Source: Pseudoalteromonas piscicida (GTDB taxonomy: Bacteria; Pseudomonadota; Gammaproteobacteria; Enterobacterales; Alteromonadaceae). Taken from it: a DNA stretch of 64,000 nucleotides. The DNA lies in NCBI RefSeq assembly GCF_000238315.3, contig NZ_CP011924.1, positions 2,086,501 through 2,150,500 on the forward strand, given 5' to 3'. How positions within the stretch are numbered: the first letter of the stretch is position 1; each line of letters begins with the position of its first letter. The notes under the pieces are model-generated. The model was not told where the DNA came from, made no database searches, and was given only the letters and a program-made list of their open reading frames with translations. Below, in pieces: positions 20,385 to 62,533 of the stretch. Position numbers and translations under genes: made by a program.

Positions 20385-20461
20385 TGGCGGACGCAGGAGG
20401 ATTCGAACCTCCGACCGCCTGGTTCGTAGCCAGGTACTCTATCCAGCTGAGCTATGCGTCC
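20385..20461 (-). tRNA. tRNA-Arg (anticodon ACG), copy 4
   Basis: A 77-nt tRNA with encoded CCA: acceptor GGACGCA/TGCGTCC, D-arm AGCTCAGCTGG, anticodon loop CTACGAA and T-arm GGTTCGAATCC. ACG is read as ICG and decodes CGU, CGC and CGA. Last true tRNA of the array in the direction of transcription. Confidence 0.97.
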
Positions 20462-20514
20462 GTTATGAATGTATAGTTTTCCAACTTATTTATTTTTAAC
20501 CACTTTAGGAAAAG

Positions 20515-20591
20515 TGGCGGACGCAGGAGGATTCGAACCTCCGACCGCCTGGTTCGTAGCCAGGTACTCTATCCAGCTGAGCTATGCGTCC
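20515..20591 (-). tRNA. tRNA-Arg (anticodon ACG), copy 3
   Basis: Identical in sequence to the copy at 20385-20461, including the encoded CCA end; 53 bases separate the two. Confidence 0.97.
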
Positions 20592-20642
20592 GTTATGAAT
20601 GTATAGTTTTCCAACTTCTTTTATATTTAACCACTAAAAGAA

Positions 20643-20712
20643 AAGTGGTGGGTGCAGGACGTATTTTGTGAAGGTGAACCTCCGACTTCCTGTTTCCTAC
20701 CTTTATTATTTA
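20643..20712 (-). repeat. Degenerate tRNA-Arg 3'-end remnant in spacer
   Basis: On the plus strand GTGGTGGGTGCAGGACG imitates the tRNA-Arg 3' end with two changes, then breaks off. A near-identical partner stands at 20855-20928 between the next pair of tRNAs. Both share a tail CTGTTTCCTACCTTTATTAT. Confidence 0.65.
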
Positions 20713-20728
20713 ACCACCTAAGGAGAAG

Positions 20729-20805
20729 TGGCGGACGCAGGAGGATTCGAACCTCCGACCGCCTGGTTCGTAGCCAGGTACTCTATCCAGCTGAGCTATG
20801 CGTCC
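20729..20805 (-). tRNA. tRNA-Arg (anticodon ACG), copy 2
   Basis: Identical to the other tRNA-Arg copies of this array, CCA encoded. Confidence 0.97.
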
Positions 20806-20854
20806 GTTATGAATGTATAGTTTTCCAACTTCTTTATATTTAACCACTAAAAGA

Positions 20855-20928
20855 AAAGTGCCGGACGCAGGACGTGTTTTTTGAAGGTGAACCTCCAACG
20901 CCTGTTTCCTACCTTTATTATTTAACCA
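20855..20928 (-). repeat. Second degenerate tRNA-Arg 3'-end remnant
   Basis: On the plus strand GTGCCGGACGCAGGACG imitates the tRNA 3' end, followed by the same tail as the remnant at 20643-20712. Such remnants in spacers suggest that the array grows and decays by recombination at the tRNA ends. Confidence 0.65.
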
Positions 20929-20940
20929 CTTAAGGAAAAG

Positions 20941-21017
20941 TGGCGGACGCAGGAGGATTCGAACCTCCGACCGCCTGGTTCGTAGCCAGGTACTCTATCC
21001 AGCTGAGCTATGCGTCC
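20941..21017 (-). tRNA. tRNA-Arg (anticodon ACG), copy 1
   Basis: Identical to the other copies; first tRNA-Arg after tRNA-Ser, 21 bases downstream of it in the transcript. Confidence 0.97.
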
Positions 21018-21036
21018 GTACAAGACAACCATTAAA

Positions 21037-21131
<95 letters not shown>

Positions 21132-52865: not shown

Positions 52866-53129
52866 GCCTGTTGATCTTTCAAGTTTGTTTTTGCAGCAGT
52901 TTGACTGGTATTTATACAAGGCAGAGCCTGCGTAGCATAGTTATTCTATGTAAGTCAGGTGATAACACAGTAGAAATGCCAGTCAAGCGCTGCCCTTTGG
53001 GTTCACCTGAGTGCGCTTTGTTCATTGTTGCTCAACTTTTGCCTAGATTACTAGGCGGCAAGTCGAGCGTCGCTACCAAAACACACTCAGAAGAACAAAA
53101 ATCAAACAGCAAAGGTCAACAGGCCCTAG
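52861..53129. mobile_element. MITE-like element, about 269 bp
   Basis: Ends are CTAGGGCCTGTTGATCTTTC and, reversed, CTAGGGCCTGTTGACCTTTG: 18 of 20 match. CTAG at both edges may be the target duplication. Inside are further inverted repeats (TTGACTGGTATTT/AAATGCCAGTCAA; CTCAACTTTTGCCTAG/CTAGGCGGCAAGTCGAG). There is no transposase; the open frame inside is not credible. Confidence 0.75.
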
Positions 53130-53852
53130 GTTCCAACATCCTTAATTGGTTTGTTGTGGAAAGCATAGCGCACGCTGTCAGATTGCTTGGCTTGATATAT
53201 AGCGGAATCTGCCTGTTGGATCCCAGTCTCGATATCGAGGTTATTAAACAGACTGACGCCGATACTAATCCGACAACTTAGCTTATTGCCTTCAAAGAGA
53301 TATGGCTTATCTACCTTGTTGATTATTTGCTGGCAGATCCCAACCACATGAGATTCGGCTTGAGGCTGTTGTGGAGATAAGTGAGTGATTAAAATCACAA
53401 ACTCATCGCCTCCCCAACGGATCACCACATCATCTTGGCGTACGCTAGCACACAAACGCTGGGCAACCGCCTTAAGTAGCTGGTCCCCCACATGGTGGCC
53501 ATGCAAGTCATTTACTTTTTTAAAATCGTCAAGGTCCAAAAACAAGATTGCGCTATAACTACCAAGCTGCTGACCTATACGGAGCTGCTCCGTTAACCCA
53601 TGTTGGAGAACATGGCGATTCGGTAGCTCGGTTAATTGGTCATGATACGCCAGCTTCTCGGCTTCAAGATACTCCAACTTACGGTCATTGATATCCCGAG
53701 ATAACACGATAAAACGTGTTTCTGCATGATTATCGCTTGCAGTGACAACCTTACGGGCAATAGAGACCTCAAACCAACGCTCGCCAACAGGCGTAGACAA
53801 GTGAATATGGCTACCATGTGAGTAGCCGTTAACTTTTGCTTCCTGTAATGCC
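53126..53852 (-). pseudogene. Duplicated 3' part of the diguanylate cyclase gene
   Basis: It encodes the same sequence as residues about 102-342 of the full gene at 54107-55138, including the intact RWGGDEF and inhibitory RQDD site, but lacks the first 100 residues and its promoter. In front of it is the second MITE body. An ATG in the junction (53863) could give a 245-residue protein with a full GGDEF domain if it were transcribed by read-through from the upstream gene, so activity cannot be excluded. Confidence 0.85.
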
Positions 53853-54110
53853 TGATCTTTCAAGTTTGTTTTTGCAGCAGTTTGACAGGTATTTATACAA
53901 GGCAGAGCCTGCGTAGCATAGTTATTCTATGTAAGTCAGGTGATAACACAGTAGAAATGCCAGTCAAGCGCTGCCCTTTGGGTTCACCTGAGTGCGCTTT
54001 GTTCATTGTTGCTCAACTTTTGCCTAGATTACTAGGCGGCAAGTCGAGCGTCGCTACCAAAACACACTCAGAAGAACAAAAATCAAACAGCAAAGGTCAA
54101 CAGGCCCTAG
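53853..54110. mobile_element. Second MITE copy, left end shortened
   Basis: Same as the element at 52861-53129 but the first eleven bases are missing at the duplication junction (CCTGATC in place of CCTGTTGATC). It arose by the tandem duplication rather than by separate insertion. Confidence 0.75.
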
Positions 54111-55138
54111 GTTCCAACATCCTTAATTGGTTTGTTGTGGAAAGCATAGCGCACGCTGTCAGATTGCTTGGCTTGATATATAGCGGAATCTGCCTGTTGG
54201 ATCCCAGTCTCGATATCGAGGTTATTAAACAGACTGACGCCGATACTAATCCGACAACTTAGCTTATTGCCTTCAAAGAGATATGGCTTATCTACCTTGT
54301 TGATTATTTGCTGGCAGATCCCAACCACATGAGATTCGGCTTGAGGCTGTTGTGGAGATAAGTGAGTGATTAAAATCACAAACTCATCGCCTCCCCAACG
54401 GATCACCACATCATCTTGGCGTACGCTAGCACACAAACGCTGGGCAACCGCCTTAAGTAGCTGGTCCCCCACATGGTGGCCATGCAAGTCATTTACTTTT
54501 TTAAAATCGTCAAGGTCCAAAAACAAGATTGCGCTATAACTACCAAGCTGCTGACCTATACGGAGCTGCTCCGTTAACCCATGTTGGAGAACATGGCGAT
54601 TCGGTAGCTCGGTTAATTGGTCATGATACGCCAGCTTCTCGGCTTCAAGATACTCCAACTTACGGTCATTGATATCCCGAGATAACACGATAAAACGTGT
54701 TTCTGCATGATTATCGCTTGCAGTGACAACCTTACGGGCAATAGAGACCTCAAACCAACGCTCGCCAACAGGCGTAGACAAGTGAATATGGCTACCATGT
54801 GAGTAGCCGTTAACTTTTGCTTCCTGTAATGCCTGCATCACTATTTTAGCGGCTTGCTCTGGCATCACTTCAGTCACCGTATGGCCAATCAATTGTTCTG
54901 CTGGCGCGACTAATAACTCAGGGCGGAGTATTCTGGCGTCCCAGTGTCGCCCCTCTTCGTCCAGTTCAAACATCAAGTCCGGCATCGCACTCAATGTCGA
55001 CGCCAATTCCTCATAGCTCGGTTGCGCCAAAGCTTGAGTGCGGGCCATACGACGGTCCTTAATCATGAGGCGTTGCAACATCCTGTTCCATAATTCTATA
55101 AACTTGAACTTTGCAATTTGAAACATGCCAATGAACAC
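54107..55138 (-). CDS. PAS-GGDEF diguanylate cyclase
   Basis: The 343-residue protein has an N-terminal basic region, a PAS-like domain (about residues 45-155, LMFELDEEGRHWDARILRPE) and a GGDEF domain (about 170-335) with intact RWGGDEF and the RxxD inhibitory site (RQDD) five residues before it. No membrane helix is evident. Its last residues and stop codon abut the MITE: the TAG lies in the element's CTAG edge. It seems to have stood directly upstream of yegD before the insertion and duplication. Confidence 0.92.
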   Translation of the reverse strand: MFIGMFQIAKFKFIELWNRMLQRLMIKDRRMARTQALAQPSYEELASTLSAMPDLMFELDEEGRHWDARILRPELLVAPAEQLIGHTVTEVMPEQAAKIVMQALQEAKVNGYSHGSHIHLSTPVGERWFEVSIARKVVTASDNHAETRFIVLSRDINDRKLEYLEAEKLAYHDQLTELPNRHVLQHGLTEQLRIGQQLGSYSAILFLDLDDFKKVNDLHGHHVGDQLLKAVAQRLCASVRQDDVVIRWGGDEFVILITHLSPQQPQAESHVVGICQQIINKVDKPYLFEGNKLSCRISIGVSLFNNLDIETGIQQADSAIYQAKQSDSVRYAFHNKPIKDVGT

Positions 55139-55281: not shown

Positions 55282-55334
55282 CGACACGGCAGCGCTTTCC
55301 ATGATGGAAGGTCACAAGATATATAAGGATGACT

Positions 55335-56117
55335 ATGTCTTTTTTCAAAAAAGCCCTTGGCGCAGTCGGTATCGGTGCAGCAAAAGTAGATACCATCTTA
55401 GAAACCCATCACGCCTCCCCTGGCGAAGAAATTTCTGGAACGGTTAAAATCATCGGTGGCAAAGTTGCTCAAGAGATCAACAAAATAGATCTTAACGTAA
55501 TGTGCAACTACACAGTTGAAAGAGAAGACAGTGAAGGTGAAACAACGACCATCACTAAAAACCACACCCTTGCTAAATTTCAAATCAACGAACGATTTAC
55601 TATCGAACCCGGTGATGAAAAGCACATTCCATTCGCGCTTGACCTCGCTGAAGAAACCCCGCTTACTGTTGGCCAATCCAAAACTTGGATCGCTACCAAC
55701 CTTGATATTGATATGGCGCTCGACAAGTCAGATAGGGACTATTTACATATCGTACCTACCGAGCTACAACAAGCGGCTATCGATGCGATGGAAGCGCTTG
55801 GCTTTAAACTTTATGAATCAGACTGTGAAGGTATTGATGAAGTATCATTCTCACGCCTGCCATTCGTACAAGAACTAGAGTTTAAAACGATCACAGGTGA
55901 CTTCCATGGTCGCTTTGATGAAGTAGAAATGGTTTTCTTTAATCGTGGTGAGCAACTCGAAATCATCTTTGAGATTGATCGCAAAGCGCGAGGCTTTAAA
56001 GGCTTCTTTGCGGAGGCGCTAGACCTTGATGAGTCAAAAGCCAGATTGTTGATAGATGAAGCAGATTTAGAAGACCTAGAAGATGCTATCTATGACATTC
56101 TAGAGGCGAATTGCTAA
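55335..56117 (+). CDS. Spo0M-family (sporulation-control, arrestin-fold) protein
   Basis: The 260-residue protein starts MSFFKKALGAVGIGAAKVDT, has the HHASPGEEISGTVKIIGGK beta-sandwich opening, the IEPGDEKHIPFALDLAEETP segment and a C-terminal acidic helical end. This is the Spo0M family, named from Bacillus but common in bacteria that do not sporulate; it has an arrestin-like fold and unclear role. ATG 55335 has AAGGA at a good distance; ATG 55329 would overlap it. It is the first gene of a PspA-containing cluster. Confidence 0.85.
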   Translation: MSFFKKALGAVGIGAAKVDTILETHHASPGEEISGTVKIIGGKVAQEINKIDLNVMCNYTVEREDSEGETTTITKNHTLAKFQINERFTIEPGDEKHIPFALDLAEETPLTVGQSKTWIATNLDIDMALDKSDRDYLHIVPTELQQAAIDAMEALGFKLYESDCEGIDEVSFSRLPFVQELEFKTITGDFHGRFDEVEMVFFNRGEQLEIIFEIDRKARGFKGFFAEALDLDESKARLLIDEADLEDLEDAIYDILEANC

Positions 56118-56406
56118 GGTATATTAACCTTATAGTATTGATAGATTTATATTGATGCTTTGGTGATCGTTGCATTCATACGAATGCAACTTCTATATGA
56201 ACAAACTCTATTATTATCCCAGTCCACCTAACGCTATGGTTTATGTTAATACAAATGTTAAGGTGTATAGGTAATAACTTTCTAGACTGATTTATTGTTA
56301 CAATTTAAGCCCCTTTAACATGCCGATCACGGCACGTTTGAGTTGACTTAAACTCAATAAAACAGCACATTAAAACGAATGGTCAAGGTAGATTAGGTGA
56401 CAATGA
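56118..56406. other. Gap of 289 bases between the spo0M-like and lipoprotein genes
   Basis: Contains a short stem GCCG-ATCA-CGGC (56322-56333) and A/T-rich DNA. A separate promoter for the following genes is possible but I cannot point to a convincing one. Confidence 0.4.
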
Positions 56407-57345
56407 ATGTCCAACTTTAGAATTTGGAAACTGGTTAGCCTACTGTGTGTTTTGAGCCTAATGCTGGGCTGCGAATCGAAAGAAGAACGTATCCAGCAAA
56501 CCATTACACATACACTTCAAGAAGCTTCAACAGCGATAAATACGCTGGGAACCGCCCTTGATAAAAAGCAGGTGAGAAACGCCAACCTTTTGACTGAGTA
56601 TGGCAAAGTACTTAGTCAGCAAAAACCTCAGCTCAGTGAAATTGCGCAAATTATTTCCCAAGACGCAACAAGCAGTGGAACCTTATATCAGAGTTTATTG
56701 ACTCGTTATCAGTCCCTCAAGTCCCCCGCTCCAAGTATGAACAGCGATGATATTATCAACCAAGCGCTCTTGTTAAAAGAAGCAGCTTCAATCAGTTTGT
56801 TCAATGATGCGCTGACAGATCCAATCAATGTTTTAGCCGATATGTCAGATGGGAAGCTAGCGCGAGTCGGCGCAATCAGTCAGCAAGCAAAACAAACAGC
56901 AAATGGTCAGACCGGTGTCGGTAACCAGCTTGTTGGTAATGCCAACTATGGCGAATGGCAGACCAACTCAAACGGCACTAGCTTTTGGATGTGGTACGGC
57001 ATGTATCGCATGCTTGGAGATATTGTTGGTGATGTGGAGTATGGCCGCTGGAGTAAACACCGCAAATACAGCTACTACAGTGACTATGGTCGCCATAGAT
57101 ACACCAGTTATAAAAGCTACAAACGCCAAACTGAACTCGCCAAACGTACTCAACAATCGTATCAAAGACAGGGTAAACAGTTTACCAGTCCCTATGCCAA
57201 GAAAAAGTCTGGCGCGTCAGGGTTAAGTCGAAGTAGTAATACCCCATCAGCAGTAACTCGAAGCAGCTACTCTCGAACCTCAAGCTACGGCTCAGTTCGC
57301 AATAGCTCAAGTAGAACCTCCCGTGGCGTAAGCCGGGGCAAATAG
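56407..57345 (+). CDS. Lipoprotein of the PspA/DUF350 stress cluster
   Basis: The 312-residue protein has a lipobox (CVLSLMLGCESKEE, Cys about 22), a helical middle part and a C-terminal third very rich in Tyr, Ser, Arg and Lys (HRKYSYYSDYGRHRYTSY; SSYGSVRNSSSRTSRG). The basic low-complexity tail could bind anionic membranes or polymers. The position between Spo0M and DUF350 genes suggests a partner in envelope stress. I do not recognise a domain; relatives near yjf-type clusters may share this plan. Confidence 0.7.
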   Translation: MSNFRIWKLVSLLCVLSLMLGCESKEERIQQTITHTLQEASTAINTLGTALDKKQVRNANLLTEYGKVLSQQKPQLSEIAQIISQDATSSGTLYQSLLTRYQSLKSPAPSMNSDDIINQALLLKEAASISLFNDALTDPINVLADMSDGKLARVGAISQQAKQTANGQTGVGNQLVGNANYGEWQTNSNGTSFWMWYGMYRMLGDIVGDVEYGRWSKHRKYSYYSDYGRHRYTSYKSYKRQTELAKRTQQSYQRQGKQFTSPYAKKKSGASGLSRSSNTPSAVTRSSYSRTSSYGSVRNSSSRTSRGVSRGK

Positions 57346-57368
57346 CGCATATATAGCGGAGTTAACAC

Positions 57369-58268
57369 ATGTACCAATTTAACGGATTAACAGCTTGGAC
57401 TTTTCAAGCATTGCTAATAGATATGGCGGTGATCGTCGCGTTGTTTGTTAGCTTAAAATACATCAAAGGTTGGGTATCTAACCTTCATGCAAACGATGAA
57501 ATAACAGAAAAAGACAACTTTGCATTTGGCCTCAGCTTTGCTGGTGGTTTAGCAGGTTTAGCCATTGTGATTTCAGGTATTTCAAGTGGTGCTTTTGCCA
57601 GTTCTTTGGCTCAAGAAGCACTACAAATGGCGGGCTATGGTATCGTTGGTATCATTCTTATCAAACTCGGACACTTTTTCCAAGATAAAGTCGCGTTACG
57701 CAAGGTGAACCTTCATGACGAAATCGTTAAAGGTAATGTCACCTCAGCACTGATTGATTTTGGCCATGTGGTGAGCGTTGCCATTGTGATCCGCTCAGCT
57801 TTGCTTTGGGTACTCACAGAGGGCTGGTATGGTTTACCGATTGTGGTTGCGGCCTTCATTATTGGTAATATTTGTATGCTGCTTGTAAGCCAATACCGAG
57901 TACAACTATTTAAGCGCACCAACAAAAGTGGCGACTGTTTACAGCAAGCAATCAAAGACAACAATATCGCGGTCGGGATCCGCTACGCTGGCTTTTTAAT
58001 CGGCTCAGCACTGGCACTAACTGCGGCGTCCGGTTTAGCGCCGTATGTAGCGGACAACATTAACTCAAGTTTACTGTACTGGAGTATTGCGGCACTGGGT
58101 AGCATTGTGCTTTTCATCGTCTTACACCTCATCATGATAAAAATTATTCTGGCGGGTAAAGATATTTCCGATGAAGTGAACAGACAAAAGAATGTTGGTG
58201 TTGCTGCAATCTCAGCCGCGCTTTCTTTTGCGATTGGTACGACTATGGCAAGTTTGTTAGGTGCATAA
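57369..58268 (+). CDS. DUF350-family membrane protein (YjfL-like), duplicated unit
   Basis: The 299-residue protein has about eight membrane helices in two DUF350-like halves (NFAFGLSFAGGLAGLAIVIS and NIAVGIRYAGFLIGSALALT), a tandem form of the 130-residue YjfL. DUF350 proteins cluster with PspA homologues and polyamine-related enzymes. It starts 23 bases after the lipoprotein gene and ends three bases before the next start. Confidence 0.85.
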   Translation: MYQFNGLTAWTFQALLIDMAVIVALFVSLKYIKGWVSNLHANDEITEKDNFAFGLSFAGGLAGLAIVISGISSGAFASSLAQEALQMAGYGIVGIILIKLGHFFQDKVALRKVNLHDEIVKGNVTSALIDFGHVVSVAIVIRSALLWVLTEGWYGLPIVVAAFIIGNICMLLVSQYRVQLFKRTNKSGDCLQQAIKDNNIAVGIRYAGFLIGSALALTAASGLAPYVADNINSSLLYWSIAALGSIVLFIVLHLIMIKIILAGKDISDEVNRQKNVGVAAISAALSFAIGTTMASLLGA

Positions 58269-58271
58269 CCC

Positions 58272-60008
58272 TTGAGCGCATCTGCACCACAAACTTCAGC
58301 AAGAGTGACCGGCAACTGGTCGTTGTTCGGTCACGACACCCTACTAATTGGCGTCATGGCTATTTTGGCCGGTTGCGGCCTAATCTACGAATATTTACTC
58401 TCCCATTATGCTGGTCGCGTTTTAGGCTCCGTAGAAAGCGCGATTTATGCCATGATAGGCACTATGATCGTGGCCATGGGCATTGGCGCATTTTTAGCAC
58501 GCTGGTTTAAAGATCCTTTTACCGCTTTTGCTTGGCTTGAAAGCCTAATCGCGCTACTGGGCATGAGCAGTATTTTGGTGATCGCCAGTGTTATTGCACT
58601 TACCTATACCCTGCCCCATACACTTTCTAGCCTATACAGCCTGCCTCCCGATAGTGTCTTAGATGGCATGCCATTTGCGCAATTACAAGCATTTGCCCGA
58701 TTTCTACCTTATGTTTTCGGCCTCATCCTAGGCATTTTAATTGGCATGGAAATTCCGCTGATCGCTAGGATCCGTCAACAAGTGTATGGCCGCTTCCTTG
58801 AAAATAACGCAGGTACCATTTACGGTGCAGATTATATCGGTGCTGGTGTTGGTGCTGCCATTTGGGTCACGATTATGCTTGCGCTGCCAATAATGCAAGC
58901 AGCAGCGTGGACTGCGCTATTTAATATTGTTGCAGGACTTATCTTCCTATGGCGTTACCATGCTCATGTCCGCTTCGCTAAGCTACTGTTTGCTTGCCAC
59001 TTTGTGTTGCTTGGTATCTTTTTTGTCATCCTAAGCCATGGCTCTCTTTGGATGAAAGACCTCAGCAATGTGCTTTACAAAGACAAAGTGATCTATTCAG
59101 AGTCAACGAAGTATCAACATGTTGTCATCACTGAGCGATTGAGCCGCGCACAACCCATGCCAATTAACGATTTATTCTTAAATGGTCGATTACAGTTTTC
59201 ATCTGTGGATGAACAGATCTATCACACTATGCTTGTGTATCCTGCAATGCTGGCATCCAACCGTCGCGAAAAGGTGTTAATTATTGGTGGCGGAGATGGT
59301 CTGGCACTTCGAGATGTACTGGAATGGCCTGTTGAAAATGCAACCTTAATCGATTTGGATGGGCAACTGCTCTCACTATTTGGACTACAAGGGCAGCCTT
59401 ACCCGGCTAGACCGCATATCACCAGTCAATTAACCCGCTTGAATAGCGACGCGTTAAACGACCCAAGAGCGACGGTTATCGTTGCAGATGCATTTTTAGA
59501 AGTAGAAAAAATGCTCGACCAAGGTAGACAATTTGACACTATCATTATCGATTTACCCGACCCTAATCACCCCGATTTAAACAAGCTATATAGCGACTAC
59601 TTTTATAATCATGTGCGTCAATTACTGGCACCTGATGGTGCACTCGCTATTCAGTCAACGTCTCCCTATCACGCCAAAAAAGCGTTTATTAGCATAGCTA
59701 AAACGGTAAAACATGCCGGGTTTACGCATGTTGAGCAGTACCAACAGAATATTCCCTCATTTGGCCAATGGGGATGGACAATCGCAACGAGAGCAGGACA
59801 ACCAGCAAGTGCTAGGATCCGGTCGGCCGAGTCTTTGCCTGTTCCAAGTAACTGGATAAACAAAGAGTATTTACTCGCGACTTTCGCCTTCCCAAATCGC
59901 TTTTTTGATGGAGCAAAAGATATTGAAGTCAACCAGTTAGGAACGGGGAGACTATACGATTATTATCGCCAAGCATGGCGAACAGAAGATGAGTTGTATA
60001 AAAATTAG
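58272..60008 (+). CDS. Membrane spermidine-synthase-like protein
   Basis: The 578-residue protein joins an N-terminal seven-helix membrane domain (about residues 20-245) to a spermidine-synthase-like methyltransferase-fold domain (about 260-520). The latter has FLNGRLQFSSVDEQIYHTML, the nucleotide-binding VLIIGGGDGLALRDVLEW and IIDLPDPNHPDLNKLYS. It thus probably acts on a decarboxylated-SAM-type donor and an amine at the membrane; substrate unknown. TTG 58272 is the start, three bases after the DUF350 stop. Confidence 0.85.
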   Translation: MSASAPQTSARVTGNWSLFGHDTLLIGVMAILAGCGLIYEYLLSHYAGRVLGSVESAIYAMIGTMIVAMGIGAFLARWFKDPFTAFAWLESLIALLGMSSILVIASVIALTYTLPHTLSSLYSLPPDSVLDGMPFAQLQAFARFLPYVFGLILGILIGMEIPLIARIRQQVYGRFLENNAGTIYGADYIGAGVGAAIWVTIMLALPIMQAAAWTALFNIVAGLIFLWRYHAHVRFAKLLFACHFVLLGIFFVILSHGSLWMKDLSNVLYKDKVIYSESTKYQHVVITERLSRAQPMPINDLFLNGRLQFSSVDEQIYHTMLVYPAMLASNRREKVLIIGGGDGLALRDVLEWPVENATLIDLDGQLLSLFGLQGQPYPARPHITSQLTRLNSDALNDPRATVIVADAFLEVEKMLDQGRQFDTIIIDLPDPNHPDLNKLYSDYFYNHVRQLLAPDGALAIQSTSPYHAKKAFISIAKTVKHAGFTHVEQYQQNIPSFGQWGWTIATRAGQPASARIRSAESLPVPSNWINKEYLLATFAFPNRFFDGAKDIEVNQLGTGRLYDYYRQAWRTEDELYKN

Positions 60009-60018
60009 CGCACGGCCA

Positions 60019-60069
60019 TTGACATATTATGTCTTACGTGCAACTCTTAACTCAGACATAATATGTCAA
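60019..60069. promoter_or_regulatory. Pair of GACATAWTATGTC palindromes forming a 16-bp inverted repeat
   Basis: TTGACATATTATGTCT (60019-60034) and AGACATAATATGTCAA (60054-60069) are exact complements 19 bases apart, and each core GACATA-W-TATGTC is itself a palindrome. Placed 14 bases before the DUF2170 gene, it may be a double operator or a leader hairpin. There is no T run after it. Confidence 0.6.
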
Positions 60070-60082
60070 AACAAAAAGGTAA

Positions 60083-60502
60083 ATGAAGATGGAATTAAAT
60101 GAACTATCAATCAAATTAGCATCATTTGAAACAGAAGGTGCTAACTTCGAATCTTTCTTAATCGCCAATGAAGGCGAGCAAGATGTATTGCAAGTGATTG
60201 TTGACGGAAATGACGAATTACCAATTTTTGTGACTCAGACTGAAGAACAACTTGTATGCATTAGTTACCTATTTAAAGAGAATGAGGTAAAGCCTGAGTT
60301 GCTAAACGAGTTAAACGAAGCACTATTAAAACTGAATGTGCCGATCCCGCTGAGTGCGTTTGCTAAAATTGATGAGCAGTATGCGATATTTGGTGCTCTA
60401 GCCGTTTCCTCCTCAATTGATGAGATCACGCACGAACTGGTCACCCTCGCGGACAATGCAATCGAAGCATTAGATGCAGTGACTGTGTATTTGAATGAAT
60501 AA
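60083..60502 (+). CDS. DUF2170 protein (YjfI-like)
   Basis: The 139-residue acidic protein (SIKLASFETEGANFESFLIA, then LVCISYLFKENEVKPELLNE) fits DUF2170, the YjfI family encoded directly before PspA-like YjfJ in enterics. It ends in DEITHELVTLADNAIEALDA. Cytosolic, function unknown; the constant pairing with a PspA paralogue suggests a partner or regulator. AAAGG lies before ATG 60083. Confidence 0.8.
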   Translation: MKMELNELSIKLASFETEGANFESFLIANEGEQDVLQVIVDGNDELPIFVTQTEEQLVCISYLFKENEVKPELLNELNEALLKLNVPIPLSAFAKIDEQYAIFGALAVSSSIDEITHELVTLADNAIEALDAVTVYLNE

Positions 60503-60517
60503 TATTGGAGTTGTGAA

Positions 60518-61207
60518 ATGAGTATTTTAAAGAAATTATTTACTGCTGTTCGTGGTGGCGCTAGAGAAGTTGGTGAGTCAATTGTTGACGCAAATGGCAT
60601 TCGTATTTTTGAGCAAGAAATTGCTGACGCACAAAACGCTTTAGCTAAAGCCAAAAAGAGCTTAACTGAAGTAATGGCGAAAGAGATGCAGACAAAACGC
60701 AAATTAGCTGCACTTGACGAAAGCATTATCGAGCATGAAAACTATGCTGGACAAGCGCTCGAAAAAGGTAACGAAGCTTTAGCGGTAGAAATCGCAGAGA
60801 AAATCGGTGAATTTGAAGTTGAGCGCGCAGAGCATCAGCAAGTGCTAGACGGTTTTAGTAAACATGTGATCCTGTTAAAGCAGCAGATCAAAGAAGCTGA
60901 AAAAACGATTAAAGAAAACCAACGCCAGCTGACCATGGTAAAAACCACAGACAGCGTTCAAAAAGCAACCATGGCAGTAAACAGCACGCTAAATACCAAT
61001 GCGTCATCTATGGTAAATGCACGTCAGTCGCTTGAGCGTATCAAGCAACGCCAGCAAGATAGGCAAGATCAACTGGCTGCGGCAAAAGAGCTTGAAGCCG
61101 CTGCAACGGGTGCAGATCTAAAAGCTAAAATGGCAGAAGCAGGTATTGGCTCTACGCAAAAGAGTAATGATATTCTTGAACGTATTAGAGCTAAACAAAG
61201 CAACTAA
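60518..61207 (+). CDS. PspA/IM30-family protein (YjfJ-like)
   Basis: PspA-family proteins are ESCRT-III-like and coat damaged inner membrane. The 229-residue protein starts with MSILKKLFTAVRGGAREVGE, an amphipathic membrane-binding helix, followed by long coiled coils (about residues 25-150) with ADAQNALAKAKKSLTEVMAK and a more variable C-terminal part rich in Ala, Glu and Gln. The absence of pspBC or pspF nearby and the DUF2170 neighbour mark the YjfJ branch. It starts 15 bases after the DUF2170 stop, with GGAG. Confidence 0.9.
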   Translation: MSILKKLFTAVRGGAREVGESIVDANGIRIFEQEIADAQNALAKAKKSLTEVMAKEMQTKRKLAALDESIIEHENYAGQALEKGNEALAVEIAEKIGEFEVERAEHQQVLDGFSKHVILLKQQIKEAEKTIKENQRQLTMVKTTDSVQKATMAVNSTLNTNASSMVNARQSLERIKQRQQDRQDQLAAAKELEAAATGADLKAKMAEAGIGSTQKSNDILERIRAKQSN

Positions 61208-61221
61208 TATTTGCTGATTAG

Positions 61222-61246
61222 AAAAAGGAGGCCTCGCCTCCTTTTT
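61222..61246 (+). terminator. Terminator between pspA-like and DUF2491 genes
   Basis: AAAAAGGAGGC-CTC-GCCTCCTTTTT, a strong stem with T run inside the cluster. It should lower expression of the distal genes relative to PspA. Confidence 0.88.
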
Positions 61247-61272
61247 ACCCTTTTTGATTATGTAGGTGCATT

Positions 61273-61911
61273 ATGTTTGGCTTTTTTAAATCAAAAAAAA
61301 CTCCTGAGCGACAACTTACTCATGCAAAAGATCTGAAAGTTGGGGACATGCTCACCATCATCGATTCGTTCGCTTACCCAAGCTGGCTCAAGGGACAAAC
61401 CCTAAAAGTTGTTGGCGTACAAACTTACCAATTTGAACGCAGCGCTGCATATGAATTTGTTCTCGAAAGTGATTCAGGTAACATTACTTTTTTGCAAATT
61501 GAACAAAGTGACGGTGAGGAATACGCGAATTTCTCTATCAAAATCCAAAGAGAAGACGTCGACGCTATTTTTACGCTTGATGAATTTGCGCGTATTTTCG
61601 ATGAAGAAGCACTGACCCACATCGACACCCACGCCACTCCAGAGATTTTCGAGCGATTTTTAGGTAAAAGCTATCAACAAAGCGAAGCGCCCTACGTTTG
61701 CTATTTTTACGATAGCGATTATCGCGGCCGCGCCTTGCCACGCTATCAAGATGAAAGTGGCGAAGTATGTGAAGTTATCGAGTTACTGAGTCCTGACGAA
61801 AAGTTCGCTATCAATATTGAGATCTGGGATGGGGGGGAAACTGACGTGTCACTAACCATGTGTCGCCCACTGAGCGATATTGTCGACCTATTTCCTGGAG
61901 CTAACTCGTGA
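61273..61911 (+). CDS. DUF2491 protein (YjfK-like)
   Basis: The 212-residue protein shows LKVGDMLTIIDSFAYPSWLK, a TLKVVGVQTYQFERSAAYEF beta-strand part and YDSDYRGRALPRYQDESGEV, then LLSPDEKFAINIEIWDGGET. It fits DUF2491, the YjfK family that follows YjfJ in enterics. Cytosolic, function unknown. Its stop overlaps the start of the next gene (GTGA). Confidence 0.8.
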   Translation: MFGFFKSKKTPERQLTHAKDLKVGDMLTIIDSFAYPSWLKGQTLKVVGVQTYQFERSAAYEFVLESDSGNITFLQIEQSDGEEYANFSIKIQREDVDAIFTLDEFARIFDEEALTHIDTHATPEIFERFLGKSYQQSEAPYVCYFYDSDYRGRALPRYQDESGEVCEVIELLSPDEKFAINIEIWDGGETDVSLTMCRPLSDIVDLFPGANS

Positions 61912-62234
61912 CCACAAGAGAAGACAAGTGGAAACGTCAAGAAGTCGCATTGAGGGCCACACAAATGGCCTTCGATTTAACCACGGAAGTACAAAAAAGT
62001 ATTAAAAAACAGGCAATAGACGAAGAGCTAACGCCATCCGATATGATCAGAAAGATCCTTGATTTAGAAGTTAAATCGAAGAAAACTCGGCAACGCTTAT
62101 CCTTCAATTTAACCGATGATGAAATCGCACTACTGGCAGAACGTTTTGGCGTTGCTCCCAACGACAAACGGGCTGTAAAGCAACAAGTCGCCAATATGCT
62201 ACTCAGTCGCTACTCAGATAAAAGAAACAAGTGA
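61908..62234 (+). CDS. Small basic protein of the stress cluster
   Basis: The 108-residue protein starts at GTG 61908 within GTGA of the preceding stop, so it is translationally coupled to the DUF2491 gene. It is highly charged and helical, with ELTPSDMIRKILDLEVKSKK, reminiscent of ribbon-helix-helix proteins, and LSFNLTDDEIALLAERFGV. It may be a DNA-binding regulator of the cluster, but I cannot confirm the fold. Confidence 0.65.
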   Translation: MTTREDKWKRQEVALRATQMAFDLTTEVQKSIKKQAIDEELTPSDMIRKILDLEVKSKKTRQRLSFNLTDDEIALLAERFGVAPNDKRAVKQQVANMLLSRYSDKRNK

Positions 62235-62302
62235 GCAGTAATACTAGTCCATTAATTTTCCAACTATTTTAAATAGTTAAAGCTACAACCTAAGAGGGAA
62301 CG

Positions 62303-62533
62303 ATGACAGAAGCAGAGATTAAGAAAAGTATTGATAAACATAGTGTGAAACCACTTATTTTCGTAGTCATCATGATGTTACTAATAGCATTATTGAATAA
62401 CTACTTATTGGAAGATGACCCATTATCTTCCAACCTATTAATTTTAGGAGCATTAGCTGCTGGCATACACATCTTCAAAAATGTCCTCTGTGACGTCCTT
62501 GTCACAAAATCAGCACAGGATGGCTCTAAATAA
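62303..62533 (+). CDS. Small two-helix membrane protein
   Basis: The 76-residue protein has a charged N-terminus (MTEAEIKKSIDKHSVK) and two hydrophobic segments (about residues 17-35 and 44-64). AGAGGGAA is a good ribosome-binding site. It is the last gene of the cluster on the plus strand. No family recognised. Confidence 0.55.
   Translation: MTEAEIKKSIDKHSVKPLIFVVIMMLLIALLNNYLLEDDPLSSNLLILGALAAGIHIFKNVLCDVLVTKSAQDGSK

Follow-up and report, generated by a model that had tools for sequence, protein, structure and literature searches.

A DUF2170-PspA operon of Pseudoalteromonas piscicida with paired palindromes and a ribbon-helix-helix-like gene: candidate core of an inner-membrane stress regulon

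The closest described relatives of the locus considered here are operons that couple a DUF2170 protein with PspA. An operon of this kind, with a DUF4178 gene and sometimes a final ribbon-helix-helix (RHH) gene, forms the second CesT/Tir-PspA group of Ravi et al. 2024 (PMC11237479, available part), who suggest polyamine or aminopropylation monitoring as a task of PspA-based systems. The stretch of 64,000 nucleotides analysed here (the window; Pseudoalteromonas piscicida contig NZ_CP011924.1, positions 2,086,501 to 2,150,500, from a genome of 5.49 Mb in two contigs) carries the set defining that group: the DUF2170-PspA dyad, a seven-transmembrane (7TM) spermidine synthase fusion, a DUF350 protein (8TM in the published group), a lipoprotein and a DUF4178 protein. 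The operon itself is already known. The window lipoprotein corresponds by position only to the Ctha_1186 lipoprotein of Ravi et al. The same dyad occurs in E. coli yjfIJKL, which also has yjfL, of the DUF350 family according to Ravi et al., and in the P. aeruginosa bac cluster, for which the available part of the BacA paper (PMC10948618) proposes sigma54 dependence and compares the DUF2170 fold with type III secretion system chaperones and ExsC. Up-regulation of yjfIJKL was linked to heat tolerance in a 2025 evolution study (PMC12492005, available part). The palindromes, the co-occurrence with gene 8 and the regulon reported below come from the present analysis and go beyond the published group as far as the available part of PMC11237479 extends; the words "operator" and "Spo0M" do not occur in its main text. 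For DUF2170-PspA systems, no operator, regulon or such regulator was found in the literature searched, a negative that is no proof of absence because most subscription papers and all supplements lay outside the search.

The cluster, extending from the lipoprotein gene to gene 8, is probably the central operon of a regulon of the Psp type that answers inner-membrane stress, with the RHH-like product of gene 8 as its repressor. A little less firmly, it probably points to an undescribed envelope-stress regulon of marine/aquatic gammaproteobacteria, in which the RHH-like repressor from the PspA operon would act through GACATAWTATGTC as a counterpart of PspF. With the same likelihood, taken jointly, the targets of that regulon would be PspA, the membrane aminopropyltransferase, flotillin/stomatin scaffolds, HtpX, NhaA, an ion channel and, in some genera, pspABC. 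Comparison across genomes strongly supports the proposed regulator-operator pairing and the candidate regulon, which are new as far as searched.

The two proposed operators, absent from the initial annotation of the window, are perfect palindromes without strand, 34 bp apart, between the enzyme and DUF2170 genes: palindrome 1 (GACATATTATGTC, 60021..60033) and palindrome 2 (GACATAATATGTC, 60055..60067). By inspection, a TTGACA hexamer (60019..60024, + strand), a possible -35 box, overlaps palindrome 1. Two perfect 13-bp palindromes GACATAWTATGTC upstream of DUF2170-pspA, the first one over TTGACA, were found in all 33 Pseudoalteromonas rows (32 fetched loci and the P. piscicida locus), with a constant spacing of 34 bp and a mean column identity of 98.5% in the palindromes vs 84.6% in the spacer. 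Within the order, 51 of 247 genomes carry the pair (54 pairs), and a DUF2170 gene lies at most 600 bp away from 50 of the 54; the reversed pattern, used as control, gave zero pairs in the same genomes. Across genera the spacing of the palindromes ranges from 33 to 40 bp. Fourteen genera with DUF2170 but lacking gene 8 were sampled, E. coli being outside that scan, and the operator pair was missing from all of them.

In all 22 promoters compared, the first palindrome gives rise to a TTGACA reading with the direction of transcription, and in some to one reading against it as well. A -10 hexamer matching in four of six positions is located 16-17 bp beyond the TTGACA in 17 of the 22; its spacing is 15 or 18 in loci L130, L150 and L151, while in L129 and the Pseudoalteromonas locus L139 the match reaches only three of six. 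The window's own promoter has no good -10 (best two of six at spacings 15-18), the matches in other genera being better, and a generic promoter scan of the window did not list the TTGACA at 60019..60024. A sigma54 consensus scan gave no match inside the cluster at 0 or 1 mismatch, and with up to 2 mismatches the whole window gave 47 matches vs 42 expected, no excess. The locus shares with the E. coli Psp response (PspF/sigma54, pspABCDE) a PspA homologue (PF04012) and PspA-centred inner-membrane protection, but differs in its TTGACA with overlapping palindromes and in having no excess of sigma54 consensus matches. Of the 14 fetched loci that include the lipoprotein gene, 8 have a palindrome upstream of it, without TTGACA in its direction; none was found there in the Pseudoalteromonas loci.

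Gene 8 (61908..62234, + strand) was assigned as an RHH-like proposed repressor from domain modelling, homologue alignment and co-occurrence with the palindrome. Its product matched no family over cut-off in Pfam or NCBIfam; residues 16-54 resemble an RHH domain in modelling, with weak scores, and the UniProt names of homologues among the matches listed are mostly "hypothetical", with several "Ribbon-helix-helix protein". Among the 247 genomes scanned, 53 of 54 carriers of TTGACATAWTATGTC also encode gene 8, including unlinked cases, and 77 encode it overall; reversing the TTGACATAWTATGTC pattern gave no matches. Gene 8 is likewise present in 67 of 68 genomes with the enzyme, even where the enzyme genes sit elsewhere, and its own operon holds the palindromic site, a candidate operator. 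An alternative is that another regulator binds the palindromes and gene 8 is a co-inherited accessory, such as an anti-repressor or a nucleoid-type protein. The weak RHH assignment and the between-genera identity of only 30-40%, set against a near-unchanged site, would fit such a role, and binding of gene 8 to the palindrome is itself something we infer. This is nevertheless rather unlikely in view of the 53 of 54 site genomes with gene 8, a comparison that did not cover other regulator families, and of A17, Q19, A21, F22 and D23 of the predicted strand, which are invariant in 57 aligned homologues.

Sites elsewhere indicate which other genes a gene 8 repressor might control. The third perfect site of the P. 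piscicida genome precedes genes for a membrane protein without Pfam match, judged YqiJ-like by eye, and for a flotillin-like protein whose Band_7 match exceeds the cut-off. Forty further site regions, none at a DUF2170 or lipoprotein gene, were fetched from among the matches listed. In 38 of these an open reading frame (ORF) of at least 60 amino acids (aa) begins within 200 bp in a TTGACA direction, counting L219 despite a longest frame that begins 21 bp earlier; the two exceptions are L204 and, with no more than a doubtful ORF in that position, L194. SPFH/NfeD/flotillin-like genes follow the site in 16 of the 40, in eight genera when the P. piscicida genome is included. Pfam confirmed Band_7 in L183, L188, L203 and L209, NfeD in L188 and L209, and YqiJ in L202; the remaining SPFH-type regions owe their label to resemblance to these or to L028, and this includes L184, where neither of the two proteins matched a family. 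Three genera have canonical psp genes behind the palindrome. In L129 both PspB and PspC exceed their Pfam cut-offs, in L187 PspA passes that of TIGR02977 and PspC stays below cut-off, and L189 was labelled by similarity. HtpX follows in L200 (NF003965 over cut-off) and possibly in L201, where the site sits between HtpX and a divergent gene; NhaA follows in L186 and L206 and an ion channel in L205. AIM24 was found in three regions, a bacterial-PH protein in three, an M16 peptidase in four and a Tim44-like protein in one, the other site-bearing regions having small or hydrolase genes without assignment. The genes behind these sites strengthen the membrane-stress theme of the initial annotation.

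Some gene arrangements around these sites were recorded in addition. YqiJ- and flotillin-like genes lie directly 3' of gene 8 in the same direction in L028 (13997-17346), L130 and L147, those of the window's genome being away from gene 8 behind a perfect palindrome. The first gene of site-bearing NfeD-stomatin operons in L185 (2900-3121) and L190 (3036-3242) encodes a small protein (68-73 aa) that by eye has two TM segments; its size is like that of gene 9 of the window, with no sequence match found. In genus g22 (L150 4449-4745, L151, L195), a 98-aa membrane protein with CxxC pairs stands behind palindromes, its L150 copy giving no Pfam match.

According to the proposed mechanism, gene 8 protein in the unstressed cell would occupy the palindrome pair of the DUF2170-pspA promoter and single palindromes at flotillin/YqiJ-like, stomatin-NfeD, canonical pspABC, HtpX, NhaA and other scattered promoters; in genera with one palindrome ahead of the lipoprotein gene, it would be bound there too. 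Inner-membrane damage would release the protein, perhaps via the DUF2170 protein, which is CesT/Tir-like and made next to PspA. PspA, SPFH scaffolds, the protease and ion transporters would then be produced, and the 7TM enzyme, together with the DUF350 protein and the lipoprotein, might aminopropylate a membrane-associated substrate. If true, DUF2170-PspA systems would have a dedicated, sequence-defined control circuit, and an ESCRT-III-like PspA, SPFH scaffolds, a membrane protease, ion transport and a polyamine-type membrane enzyme would be joined in one response, whose members could be listed by searching for a short, near-invariant site.

The extent of the operon was assessed in 33 loci obtained by scanning enzyme-bearing genome contigs, 32 of them from Pseudoalteromonas; the nearest named relatives of the enzyme belong to the piscicida/flavipulchra group of this genus (96-98% identity). 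The ORF list confirmed nine + strand ORFs at 55329-62533, as initially annotated. The gene-neighbourhood survey proposed at that time bore out part of the nine-gene cluster: the seven genes from lipoprotein to gene 8 stay together in 32 of the 33 loci, and the unit is therefore placed at 56407-62234. This upholds the view of PspA, DUF2170, DUF350, the membrane aminopropyltransferase-like enzyme and the lipoprotein as a unit. The sole exception is Motilimonas L033, with lipoprotein-DUF350-enzyme only and the other four genes missing there; the lipoprotein gene was found in all 33. Spo0M occurs in 10 of 33 loci, or in 10 of the 24 with at least 2 kb of sequence before the lipoprotein gene, its absence saying little in the 9 with less than 2 kb, and in L005 an extra gene separates it from the unit. 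Gene 9 occurs in 3 of 33. Both are lineage-specific neighbours, not core. The unit is built of two modules, lipoprotein-DUF350-enzyme and DUF2170-PspA-DUF4178-gene 8, the former being separable from pspA in L033, L153 and L154. The initial annotation had thus found a real unit, with borders too wide and one gene mislabelled. It had also treated the lipoprotein and the last two small proteins as unfamiliar members; two of these, the lipoprotein and gene 8, are part of the core and were described before, as far as the available part of PMC11237479 goes; gene 9 lies outside the core.

The enzyme (58272..60008, + strand) is a 7TM fusion with a spermidine-synthase-like C-terminal domain (PF01564, Spermine_synth, 3e-31; NCBIfam NF002956 over cut-off), with seven hydropathy peaks in its N-terminal half. 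GGGDG and a second aspartate have catalytic roles in spermidine synthases. The GGGDG and IDLPDP motifs of the enzyme align with solved spermidine synthases, both motif aspartates being retained, and aminopropyl transfer is therefore predicted to be more likely than plain methyl transfer. For all 11 genomes of genus g12 (L101-L111), the coordinates place an S-adenosylmethionine (AdoMet) decarboxylase ORF of about 107 aa directly downstream of the enzyme; all 11 have ESHAAVH, in keeping with what is presumably the AdoMet-decarboxylase motif, ESHxxVH, and the one ORF checked by Pfam was over cut-off. PF02675 matched in the P. piscicida genome and in 24 of 68 genomes with a full-length enzyme, one of them (G187) below cut-off. 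The lack of a match in the other 44, among them 17 of 17 from g16 and 16 of 17 from g21, weighs against an aminopropyl step: either the donor differs, or the decarboxylase was unrecognised, or decarboxylated AdoMet is unused. The MFS-spermidine synthase/DUF350/AdoMet decarboxylase clusters that Ravi et al. cite from Li et al. 2019 likewise have a membrane fusion enzyme with DUF350, and sometimes the decarboxylase, but the enzyme of the window is tied to PspA and gene 8. Work by Li and colleagues in 2019 is said to show that the MFS-spermidine synthase does not replace spermidine synthase. Two further spermidine-synthase-like genes (frames of 294 and 212 aa) lie close together elsewhere in the P. 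piscicida genome (L155, G000:C1:2990000-3004000).

The initial annotation had understood all nine genes as one polyamine-based membrane-repair machine with PspA, repair or charge adjustment of the inner membrane being its possible task. The conserved, co-occurring enzyme, DUF350, lipoprotein and PspA module and the g12 decarboxylase ORFs agree with this model, but the non-conservation of Spo0M and gene 9, the enzyme trio standing apart from pspA and the 44 hosts without a detectable decarboxylase make it improbable, somewhat more so than an accessory role of gene 8. That the palindromes work in RNA, or as terminators/attenuators, is very improbable, for although palindrome 2 is close to the expected transcript start, palindrome 1 lies over TTGACA upstream of the expected transcript, and the exact 13 bp are retained at single sites before unrelated genes.

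The remaining features, all on the + strand, agree with most of the initial identities. The Spo0M neighbour (55329..56117; PF07070, 1e-69) precedes the lipoprotein (56407..57345), which opens the unit and has the lipobox LMLGC by eye, a basic Tyr/Ser/Arg-rich tail and a computed isoelectric point of 9.9. The YjfL-type tandem DUF350 membrane protein (57369..58268; PF03994 in two stretches, 8e-36) has seven hydropathy peaks. DUF2170 (YjfI/BacA; 60083..60502; PF09938, 1e-37) has a CesT/Tir-like fold according to the available parts of PMC11237479 and PMC10948618, and is followed by PspA/YjfJ (60518..61207; PF04012, PspA_IM30, 2e-39), ESCRT-III-like by family, and by a terminator-like stem-loop (61222..61246) from a hairpin scan with 10 such sites vs 7.1 expected from shuffles. 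Gene 7 (61273..61911) had been labelled a DUF2491/YjfK partner; this was ruled out by the absence of any DUF2491 match at E<=1 in Pfam, DUF4178 (PF13785, 6e-7) being over cut-off instead. Gene 9 (62303..62533) encodes a 76-aa protein with two hydropathy peaks, and neither it nor the lipoprotein matched a family in Pfam or NCBIfam.

Ten DUF2170 proteins (L035-L044) have an N-terminal extension of 70-80 aa, for which Pfam gave a weak MazE-like match only and which has no similarity to gene 8; if it were a fused DNA-binding part, it would tie DUF2170 to regulation. Their upstream regions have a different palindrome type, mostly ACATGT repeats, e.g., ATCACATGTAATATTTACATGTGAT. Elsewhere in the window, a stretch of a - strand gene for a GGDEF protein is duplicated in tandem with a 981-bp period (52907-54835; 948-bp exact copies at 52907-53854 and 53888-54835), and four tandem tRNA-Arg(acg) genes and a tRNA-Ser gene lie at 20385-21131.
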